NCBI RefSeq assembly: GCF_027359595.1
Contig: NZ_CP114783.1
Location: forward strand, 310,001 to 374,000
Direction: 5' to 3'
DNA: 64,000 nt
Source: Prochlorococcus marinus str. MIT 0912
GTDB lineage: Bacteria > Cyanobacteriota > Cyanobacteriia > PCC-6307 > Cyanobiaceae
Part shown: one piece after another, positions 41,403-44,097 of the stretch
How the letters are laid out: each line of letters opens with the position of its first letter
How positions within the stretch are numbered: the stretch's first letter is position 1
The notes under the pieces: generated by a model
Told to the model about the DNA's origin: nothing
Database searches by the model: none
What the model saw: the letters and a program-made list of their open reading frames with translations, nothing else
Position numbers and translations under genes: made by a program

Positions 41403-41999
41403 ATGACGACAAATGAGTGCCTAAGGGTAGGAATGCAAGCTCCTGATTTTGCTGCTACTGCAGTAGTTGACCAAGAATTTAAAGACATTACGCTTTCACA
41501 GTTCAGAGGGAAGTATGTTGTTCTCTTTTTCTATCCACTAGACTTCACATTTGTTTGCCCTACTGAAATTACTGCTTTCAGCGATAGATATAGCGATTTC
41601 AGCAGCAAAAACACTGAAGTTTTAGGTGTCTCAGTCGATAGCAAATTTACACATTTAGCTTGGATTCAAACACCAAGGAATGAGGGAGGAATCGGTGATA
41701 TTAACTATCCTCTTGTGTCAGATCTAAAACGTGAAATTTGCCAATCTTATAATGTTTTAAATGATGATGGAGAAGCTGATAGGGGCTTATTCTTAATCAA
41801 TCCAAGTGGAATCATTATGCATTCAACAATCAATAAAGCTCCTGTTGGCCGTAATATTGACGAAACACTTAGAATATTGCAAGCATACCAATACGTTGAA
41901 TCTCACCCAGATGAAGTATGTCCAGCTGGCTGGACGCCTGGCGATAAGACTATGAAAGAAGATCCTAAAGGAAGCAAGGAATATTTTTCATCCCTCTGA
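41403..41999 (+). CDS. 2-Cys peroxiredoxin
   Basis: A thiol peroxidase that reduces hydrogen peroxide and organic peroxides with thioredoxin or NTRC as donor. The peroxidatic cysteine is C52 in [13 protein letters not shown] and the resolving cysteine C173 in [13 protein letters not shown], which makes it a typical 2-Cys (Prx1/AhpC) enzyme acting as a dimer. GGIG and the C-terminal tail, which ends in YFSSL, suggest sensitivity to overoxidation. At 198 residues it is full length. It converges with the FtsH homologue through a short hairpin. Confidence 0.96.
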
Positions 42000-42020
42000 A
42001 AATAATAAATTATTATTTTT
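41999..42020. terminator. Bidirectional terminator-like hairpin
   Basis: AAAATAATA (41999-42007), loop AAT and TATTATTTT (42011-42019) form a perfect stem flanked by A-runs and T-runs. It sits exactly between the stop codons of the convergent peroxiredoxin and FtsH-like genes and could work in both directions. The stem is all A-T, so its strength is limited. Confidence 0.45.
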
Positions 42021-43746
42021 AATTTCTAGAAAGGTAAGAATTAAGAGAATTAATAACATATTCAGACTCAAGAGATTCATTAACTATAAGTTCTTCGACA
42101 AGATTGTCCATTAAGGGTACTTTATCTGAGAGAAGATTAATTGCATCATTTATAGCATTATTTGCTATGGATATAATTTGCTTGTCAATTTCCTTGCTTG
42201 TCTTCTCAGAATATTCTTGTCTCTTTTTCATAATATCTTTTCCGAGAAAAATTGAATCTTTATTTGAGTCATATGCAACAGGTCCAAGATCTGAGAAACC
42301 AAACTTTGTAACCATTTGATTAGCCCAAAAATAAACATTTTCTAAATCCTTTTGTGATCCTTGTGTAACTTCCTTAGAACCAAAAACAATGGTTTCAGCA
42401 GCTCTTGACCCAAGCGAAATAACTATTTTGCTATAAATGTAATTTCGTGTTAATAGCCCACTGTCTATAGTCTCTTCATCAGGAGTGAAATAAGTCATTC
42501 CTGAAAGATCTCCTAGAGACTTAAACAATGATATCTTTTCCAATTTATCTTGAGTAGGCATCAATAAAGCTACTAAAGTTTTACCTATGATCTGATATGC
42601 AATTTGCCTTTTTTTAGTGGAATCAGAAAGTGGCTTTGATAACAAGCCAAACCTTGCTTTCTCTAGGGCATTATCAAGTTCAATATTACTTATTATAGAT
42701 TTATTATTTCTTGCAGAATAAATTGCAGCCTCATTAAGAAGATTTTGTAAATCAGCCCCAGAGAAGCCAGGGGTCTTCGTAGCCCATTCCATTAGATTTA
42801 CAGAATCGCTTAGAGGCTTTGATCTTGCGTGCACAGACAAGATCTTGTGTCGCGCTTTTCTATTAGGAAGGGATATGTCAATTCTGCGGTCAAATCTTCC
42901 AGGTCTTGTTAAAGCTGGGTCAAGAACATCTGGCCTATTTGTAGCTGCTATTACTATTACTCCATTATTAGTTTCGAAACCATCCATCTCAGTTAGTAGT
43001 TGGTTTAATGTTTGTTCTCTCTCATCATTTCCACCACCTATCCCTGCCCCTCTTTGACGTCCAATAGAGTCAATTTCATCTATGAAAACTATGCATGGAG
43101 ATTTAGATTTTGCACTTTTAAATAAATCACGAACACGACCAGCTCCAACACCGACAAACATCTCTACAAATTCTGAAGCAGAGATAGAAAAGAAAGGAAC
43201 ATCTGCTTCTCCTGCAATTGAACGAGCTAGTAAAGTCTTACCTGTTCCAGGTGGGCCCACCAACAAAACACCTTTTGGAGTCTTTGCTCCAAGCTCAATT
43301 AATCTCTGAGGATTCTTTAAAAAACATACTATTTCTTTTAATTCTCCCGATTCTTCATTTAAACCAGCAACATCATCAAAAGTATATTTCCTAATATCAT
43401 CTTCTTTCACCTGTGATGAAAGCCCGGAAAAACTTTGCATTTTGTTCAATAACTTCGATGATCTTCTAATTAAAAATGAAAGAGATAAAATAAATATTAA
43501 AGCCAGACCAAAGCCAGAGATATAATTAGCTAATCGCTCCTCATATCTAATATCTCTTACAGTAAGAGGAACATTATACTGTTCAGATATTCGAAGTATT
43601 TTTTGATCGTTATAAAATATTGGGATTAATTTTTTCTCTCCATTAGTAAATTCAACTACTACTTCTCTTCTGTTTGGAACTAAAGTAATAGAAACAATAT
43701 CTCCACTTTCAATATCTCTTAATAATTGACTATAACTTTTACTCAT
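42019..43746 (-). CDS. FtsH-family AAA protein lacking the zinc protease motif
   Basis: The 575-residue protein follows FtsH from the periplasmic domain onward. One membrane helix is seen at about residues 75-94. The AAA module is complete: Walker A GPPGTGKT (164-171), Walker [10 protein letters not shown] (218-226), the second region of homology [19 protein letters not shown] (269-287). In the protease domain the HExxH zinc motif should be at 385-389, but the sequence reads [10 protein letters not shown], so both histidines and the glutamate are gone; the third ligand region SQKDLENV (near D467) is kept. The first N-terminal membrane anchor is also absent, and an in-frame TGA upstream excludes an extension. 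It should unfold or remodel proteins but not cleave them. Confidence 0.88.
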
Positions 43747-43917: not shown

Positions 43918-44097
43918 ATGGCTGTACCTAAGAAAAAAACCTCAAAAGGCAAGAGAAATCAAAGACATGCTACTTGGAAAGGTAAGGCTGCTGTCGCGGC
44001 AGAAAAGGCTTTATCAATTGGGAAATCAGTACTTACAGGAAGAGCTCAGGGGTTTGTTTATCCTATGAATGAGACTTCAGATGAAGAATCTGATTAG
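43918..44097 (+). CDS. rpmF: 50S ribosomal protein L32
   Basis: A 59-residue ribosomal protein with the diagnostic start [20 protein letters not shown], basic centre ([19 protein letters not shown]) and an acidic end. It is short for routine ORF listing. There is no zinc-ribbon cysteine pair, as in other cyanobacterial L32. It is divergent from the FtsH homologue (171 bases between the starts), and its end meets the convergent DUF565 gene after six bases. Confidence 0.94.

Follow-up and report, generated by a model that had tools for sequence, protein, structure and literature searches.

In Synechocystis, FtsH1 and FtsH2 (both type B) assemble with FtsH3 (type A) into FtsH1/3 and FtsH2/3 hetero-oligomers, while FtsH4 forms homo-oligomers, as set out in passages of a 2024 review (PMC11287208). 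The same passages describe FtsH1/3 as essential, with free Fur as a substrate for degradation and PhoU as a probable target of control, and list the reasons for its essentiality as unanswered (PMC11287208). A 1:1 subunit ratio has been shown for cyanobacterial FtsH, and in plant thylakoid FtsH some of the catalytic sites are dispensable (passage of PMC6019477). One or two N-terminal helices anchor FtsH proteins in the membrane (passage of PMC9020784), and the zinc ligands of E. coli FtsH are written as HExxHx74D (passage of PMC11266112).

Members in which HEXXH is mutated or missing and the AAA domain is kept are defined as FtsHi in a passage of PMC6460958. The Arabidopsis FtsHi proteins read TEVGV, NEAAM, REAAV and WAAGR at this place, and the relevant passages of the source name only plant FtsHi as inactive M41 proteins (PMC11266112). 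One FtsHi, presumably inactive, has been observed in P. marinus SS120 (passage of PMC6460958, repeated in PMC8197885).

The window analysed here is a stretch of 64,000 nucleotides from P. marinus str. MIT 0912. It lies within a single-contig genome of 1,898,947 bases (G000), and its genus bears the code g1. An open reading frame on the minus strand, 42019–43746, starts with ATG and encodes 575 aa; its coordinates, frame and residues agree with the first-pass annotation, as does an in-frame TGA upstream, which is the fifth codon before the ATG and gives an open frame of 579 aa. The features of the gene and its neighbours are:

41403..41999, plus strand, 2-Cys peroxiredoxin (named from sequence), convergent neighbour, 19 bp from the ftsH stop
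42019..43746, minus strand, FtsH1-type pseudoprotease (FtsH1i; picocyanobacterial 'FtsH4'), 575-aa ORF, assigned by families, trees and rpmF synteny
42058..42624, minus strand, M41 peptidase domain, residues 375–563, predicted fold kept, active site lost (PF01434; model)
42346..42348, minus strand, Asp467, at the place of the third zinc ligand, Asp retained (alignment)
42580..42594, minus strand, QIIGK, residues 385–389, in place of HEXXH (sequence, alignment)
42871..43269, minus strand, AAA ATPase core, residues 160–292 (PF00004, 1.6e-48)
42886..42906, minus strand, SRH RPGRFDR, residues 281–287 (motif; R281 and R284 invariant in 60 sequences)
43069..43092, minus strand, Walker B IVFIDEID, residues 219–226 (sequence motif)
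43234..43257, minus strand, Walker A GPPGTGKT, residues 164–171 (sequence motif)
43462..43524, minus strand, the only membrane anchor seen, about residues 75–95, equivalent of TM2 (hydropathy, 29/29 unique g1 sequences; helix 67–107 in the model)
43555..43737, minus strand, FtsH_ext-like N-terminal domain, residues 4–64, with no first membrane anchor before it (weak Pfam match, below cut-off)
43918..44097, plus strand, rpmF (ribosomal protein L32, named from sequence), divergent upstream neighbour, a conserved synteny marker

The domain content of the protein is that of an FtsH. Pfam finds the AAA domain (PF00004, E=1.6e-48) followed by Peptidase_M41 (PF01434, E=6.6e-39; 134 bits against a cut-off of 29.9), and FtsH_ext is weak (1e-4, under its cut-off). 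The AAA module is complete, as the first-pass annotation had stated, with Walker A, the pore loop MFVGVG, Walker B and the SRH all seen; a sensor motif is also present, and we take RPGRFDR to supply the arginine fingers. A single hydrophobic helix forms the N-terminal anchor, where FtsH usually has two, and it is the first that is absent. The protein scores 615 bits against FtsH_fam (TIGR01241, cut-off 600), an NCBIfam equivalog named 'ATP-dependent zinc metalloprotease FtsH', so that a name-based inventory overcounts the active proteases by one. An AlphaFold2 model built from an alignment of 60 orthologues has a mean pLDDT of 78.8 and a pTM of 0.59, with residues 491–511 at a pLDDT below 50. 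In a Foldseek search with this model, the top match is an E. coli FtsH model and the next a Chlamydomonas Ycf2-FtsHi motor subunit; at the level of a predicted structure, such matches follow from the fold that FtsH proteins have in common, and they do not separate the readings weighed below.

The HEXXH half of the HEXXH-plus-Asp zinc site of an active protease is absent. The plus strand at 42580–42594 reads tttacctatgatctg, and its reverse complement, CAGATCATAGGTAAA, encodes QIIGK at residues 385–389. The loss reported from the window alone is thereby confirmed: His385, Glu386 and His389 are all replaced, while Gly388 and Asp467 are retained. The damaged HEXXH together with the kept AAA domain makes the protein FtsHi-type by the definition given above. 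In the model, QIIGK sits inside a helix spanning residues 376–395, and the neighbouring 'LVAL strand' of the first-pass annotation, named by motif, is in fact part of that helix. The motif Q[IV]IG[KR] is found in 31/31 loci read from g1, which rules out a sequencing error or a frameshift and bears out the earlier view of a substitution. Likewise, a purely local loss is excluded, since none of 78 unique orthologues from seven genus codes has the second zinc His. Taken at the level of sequence, the protein is thus a protease-dead FtsH with conserved ATPase motifs that arose by substitution and has been kept across clades.

The missing first membrane anchor had also been noted, alongside the loss of the zinc motif. 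The absence itself stands, and its connection to the protease site does not. A hydropathy search, with the upstream stretch limited to 60 residues, finds a TM1-like segment in only 1/48 HEXXH-bearing orthologues of the family, compared with 8/13 from other cyanobacterial families. A coupled loss of anchor and protease site is therefore ruled out, and anchor loss is not specific to the protease-dead form.

The protease-dead state extends over seven genus codes. Residue 389 is Lys or Arg in 77 of the 78 unique orthologues, Ile in one and His in none, while all 61 other sequences carry HExGH and the zinc Asp; 48 of these represent 39 further genera of the family, and the remaining 13 are FtsH1-type proteins of different cyanobacterial families. 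For g1, 31 loci were read, of which 30 (29 unique) entered the final alignment; that alignment leaves out L008, a near-copy of L111, represents L009 by its copy L188, and does not count paralogues as orthologues. A match at E <=1e-158 is present in 29/41 g1 genomes, with a partial match in one of the other 12 (G040). In g18, 52/61 genomes match, and NEVGR is read in all 31 loci. The 10 orthologues read from the 14 genomes of g11, the group to which the SS120 FtsHi presumably belongs by strain placement, show HEIGK four times and NEIGR, NEAGK, YEIGR, NEVGR, NTIGR and NEIGI once each, all different from QIIGK in the window. The remaining motifs are QQVGR and RNASK in g4, HEAGR and NEVGK in g40, HQIGK (twice) and HEIGK (once) in g17, and RESAR in g28. 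Asp467 is retained in most protease-dead members. In the five HEIGK sequences (L148, L149, L150 and L151 of g11, and L311 of g17), His385 and Glu386 are kept, the second His is gone, and the zinc Asp is now Gln. The RNASK sequence (L179, G043:C1:286939-288615) is FtsH1-type and comes from a single-contig genome; its frame is open and its Walker motifs are still present, and its branch is very long, at 1.8–1.9 changes per column.

Three relatives with Prochlorococcus titles were found among 80 scanned loci (the other 77 come from other organisms and stand outside all counts): L007 (AG-402-B05) is 85% and L008 (AG-402-I20) 82% identical to FtsH1i of the window, and L009 (AG-363-K07), with HEVGH, is 57% identical. 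The N-terminal 40 residues of L008 and L111 are unlike those of the rest of g1, the match starting at residue 39–41, apparently through misassembly of one single-cell genome.

Among high-quality genomes, an orthologue or match is present in 15/17 of g1, 22/22 of g18 and 3/3 of g11, and no match listed contains an internal stop. The 12 g1 genomes in which FtsH1i is not matched at 1e-158 also yield no peroxiredoxin, in a search run without a positive control, so the segment is either missing from these assemblies or deleted as a block; we do not take these 12 cases as true absence. Across the family, 46 of 59 sampled genera have a match at 1e-158. No FtsH1-type protein was seen in the other 13 (g12, g15, g16, g20, g21, g27, g34, g37, g39, g47, g51, g56 and g57) when one genome of each was re-searched (12 genomes 53–88% complete, and G066, of genus g27, 99% complete). 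G066 and G078 (84% complete) each encode three FtsHs, all of the other types and all with HEXXH. FtsH1 may thus have been fully lost in some picocyanobacterial lineages, and because G066 at 99% completeness has only the other three types, the subunit is possibly dispensable in some of them.

The assignment to FtsH1 rests on tree topology and on passages of PMC11287208 for the names FtsH1–4, the trees being built from sequences other than those of Synechocystis. In a quick tree of 78 rows rooted on the L004-type paralogue, the family groups with FtsH1-type proteins of other cyanobacteria at 97, and the FtsH1-type joins the L003-type at 100, with the L002-type placed elsewhere. Because Synechocystis FtsH1 shares type B with FtsH2, whereas FtsH3 belongs to type A, we read the L003-type as the FtsH2-like paralogue, the L002-type as the FtsH3-like one and the L004-type as the FtsH4-like one; FtsH1i clusters with the FtsH1-type, is sister to the FtsH2-type and stands apart from the FtsH3 and FtsH4 types. 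This sequence-based assignment matches that of Bonisteel et al., for whom picocyanobacterial FtsH4 corresponds to Synechocystis FtsH1, a relation that the passage concerned terms 'less obvious' (PMC6300248).

With the motif columns removed, a 59-row tree gathers the protease-dead sequences of g1, g4, g11 and g18 in a single group (support 100/96). In a 55-row tree covering all seven genera, also without motif columns, the protease-dead rows fall on one side of a branch at 90/57, so that support for a seven-genus clade is only moderate. A single change accounts for the loss of His389 on the 55-row tree, against at least four changes at His385, at least three at Glu386 and at least eight at Asp467, and the second His was therefore probably lost first. 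A 29-row tree of the L002-type likewise places the rows of g1, g4, g11, g18 and g40 together, with modest support (91/58).

The upstream neighbour is stable and the downstream neighbour is not. By tblastn, rpmF adjoins the gene in 77/78 protease-dead loci, 48/48 HEXXH loci of the family and 1/13 loci of other families; a strict pattern search did not match rpmF at L111, and it also missed all g18 loci. The first-pass annotation had remarked on the adjacent peroxiredoxin, and a link to it finds no backing: direct adjacency was seen only in g1 (29/29) and at one HEXXH locus (L196), and in the other protease-dead genera the gap between ftsH and peroxiredoxin measures 700–899 bases wherever the fetched stretch reaches the peroxiredoxin. 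UPF0182 takes this place at 26/48 HEXXH loci and at 0/78 protease-dead loci; an example is L009:6754-9540, a gene of 929 aa (PF03699) between ftsH and peroxiredoxin. The peroxiredoxin adjacency thus varies, and it looks incidental; a functional link is unnecessary. In the other 22/48 HEXXH loci, no UPF0182 match is present within the fetched stretch, and 11/48 have no long open frame just downstream, one of them being L196, with its adjacent peroxiredoxin. Genome-wide, UPF0182 was found in G124 and G053; it was not found in protease-dead G000, G057, G050 and G079, which represent four genera, nor in G066, G078 and G054. Loss of UPF0182 may coincide with loss of the zinc site.

Purifying selection, for which a test had been suggested, is seen in a one-ratio codon model, with an omega of 0.048 across eight g1 genomes (N-terminal part 0.065, AAA 0.036, M41 0.054). 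In g18, omega is 0.038 for ten sequences and 0.055 for M41 alone, compared with 0.081 for eight HEXXH orthologues and 0.008–0.017 for the three g1 paralogues; since tree lengths amount to several substitutions per codon, dS is probably near saturation and these values are rough. Residues K170, D223, E224, N270, R281 and R284 are invariant in 60 aligned orthologues, comprising the seven protease-dead genera and HEXXH relatives. Mean identity within g1 (eight genomes; seven for the L004-type) is 0.858 for FtsH1i against 0.956–0.975 for the three paralogues, and FtsH1 is described as fast-evolving in cyanobacteria generally (PMC8047818).

We defined conserved columns as those kept in at least 95% of HEXXH orthologues. 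In the protease-dead set, 25/51 such columns are lost in M41 and 20/143 in AAA (Fisher p 1.4e-6, with relatedness ignored); those lost in g1 include 385, 386, 389, 390, 409, 413, 447 and 464. Individual protease-dead genera have lost 4–16 of 51 M41 columns, compared with 0–4 of 47–52 in ten HEXXH control sets, which are less divergent (mean identity 0.63–0.70, against 0.51–0.58 in the protease-dead genera), and the lowest genus, g40 (4/51), is level with the worst control, L215 (4/52). In AAA, too, the protease-dead genera show slightly more losses, 4–10 of 143 columns against 0–4 of 140–145 in the controls. As judged from these alignments, constraint is relaxed mainly in M41.

Among the paralogues of FtsH1i, HEXXH is kept in 56/56 sequences read from five of the seven genera (g1, g4, g11, g18 and g40), comprising 25 L002-type, 20 L003-type and 11 L004-type sequences; the zinc Asp is confirmed in 48/56, the search pattern having missed it in eight L003-type sequences. 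From the analysis as a whole, we favour a reading in which FtsH1i is a protease-dead, ATP-hydrolysing FtsH1-type partner of an active FtsH3-type subunit in an FtsH1/3 hetero-hexamer; the first-pass annotation had likewise suggested an inactive member of mixed FtsH rings. An ancestor shared by several Prochlorococcus lineages would have turned its FtsH1-type subunit into a pseudoprotease, the second His changing to Lys or Arg first and the other active-site residues then drifting in each lineage. Carrying over the arrangement of Synechocystis, FtsH1i would alternate with the active type A subunit in one ring, supplying ATP hydrolysis, pore loops and ring structure to pull substrates in, and cutting would be left to the three FtsH3 zinc sites. 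The faster evolution of FtsH1i relative to its three paralogues speaks against this reading and would also fit slow decay.

A more specific version of the partner reading, which we offer tentatively, is a natural 'half-dead ring', in which FtsH1 would be a pure motor, three zinc sites would suffice, and Lys/Arg389 might form a salt bridge with the remaining acid (Glu386 or Asp/Glu467). The basic side chain at 389 would then possibly take over from zinc in balancing the charge of Glu386 or Asp467. Alongside the 77/78 unique protease-dead sequences with Lys or Arg at 389, an acid is left at 386 or 467 in 76/78; many of the 78 are close relatives, so the charge pattern is a suggestion only. In inactive alpha-MPP, of family M16, an Arg likewise occupies the place of the corresponding His (HxxDR; table in PMC11266112, as excerpted). 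In a ring with three working zinc sites, selection on FtsH1 would keep unfolding and ring building, and not cutting.

The same ATPase and pore-loop motifs, together with the predicted retention of the M41 fold, could serve a stand-alone unfoldase or chaperone, in which FtsH1i homo-hexamers would act as a remodelling motor that draws in membrane or soluble proteins and leaves them uncut. The chloroplast Ycf2-FtsHi motor complex at Foldseek rank 2 points the same way, as does plant FtsH12, which performs an import job without a zinc site (passage of PMC6460958). However, fold matches of this kind are common to FtsH proteins generally, and Synechocystis FtsH1 is known as a partner of FtsH3 (passage of PMC11287208); we regard stand-alone action as unlikely. 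An inhibitory role, with FtsH1i competing with the fully active FtsH2-type for FtsH3 and thereby setting the number of zinc sites per ring, draws on the mixed rings with a shared type A partner in Synechocystis (passages of PMC11287208), as the preferred reading does, but it overlaps with that reading, and as a separate explanation it seems quite improbable.

Decay of the gene is a doubtful explanation, and one that we rate somewhat below stand-alone action. The protease function would have been dropped during genome streamlining, leaving a remainder of weak or no function on its way to loss. Faster evolution than the paralogues, the relaxed M41, the repeated and separate losses of the other active-site residues, the very long branch of the RNASK sequence, the lack of any FtsH1-type protein in G066 and of a match in 2/17 high-quality g1 genomes would all fit such a course. 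Yet the listed matches are free of internal stops, omega in g1 is low in AAA and in M41 alike, six key ATPase residues are invariant across seven genera, and the gene is present in nearly every high-quality genome of g1 and in all those of g18 and g11; the two g1 exceptions also have no peroxiredoxin match, and the segment may be missing from their assemblies. An active protease with a non-canonical site could call on Asp467, which remains in most members, but replacement of His385, Glu386 and His389 leaves the general base and two ligands missing, and His389 is absent in 78/78 unique orthologues, which makes this reading barely credible.

If many Prochlorococcus keep an FtsH1 that does not cut, what makes this subunit essential may be its motor or the position that it fills within the ring. 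The protein belongs to the same lineage as Synechocystis FtsH1 (slr1390, the FtsH1/3 subunit), by a passage of PMC6300248 and by our quick tree, and shares its AAA and M41 architecture; it differs in having neither HEXXH nor the first anchor, the latter loss being common to HEXXH-bearing relatives of the family. The prior report is of one FtsHi in SS120 (passage of PMC6460958), and the published passages do not cover its gene and motif, its orthology and distribution, its partner or the selection acting on it. In the passages of open-licence literature searched, we found neither the loss across the clade nor its history described, nor any mention that the inactive protein is FtsH1 or of the sequence in which the residues were lost. 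Catalytic mutants of Arabidopsis FtsH2 (VAR2) are engineered, whereas Prochlorococcus FtsH1i is a natural state. Plant and algal FtsHi1–5, with FtsH12 and Ycf2, likewise combine a damaged HEXXH with a kept AAA domain, and they act in hetero-complexes. A kinship with plant FtsHi import motors, which the first-pass annotation had cited for comparison, is unsupported, and nothing found here points to an import motor: in trees without plant sequences, the protein lies inside the cyanobacterial FtsH1-type, and an origin independent of plant FtsHi is therefore likely. In FtsH1i, Prochlorococcus would thus have a bacterial equivalent of plant FtsHi that probably arose separately, and intermediates that keep His385 and Glu386 but have lost His389 are still alive.
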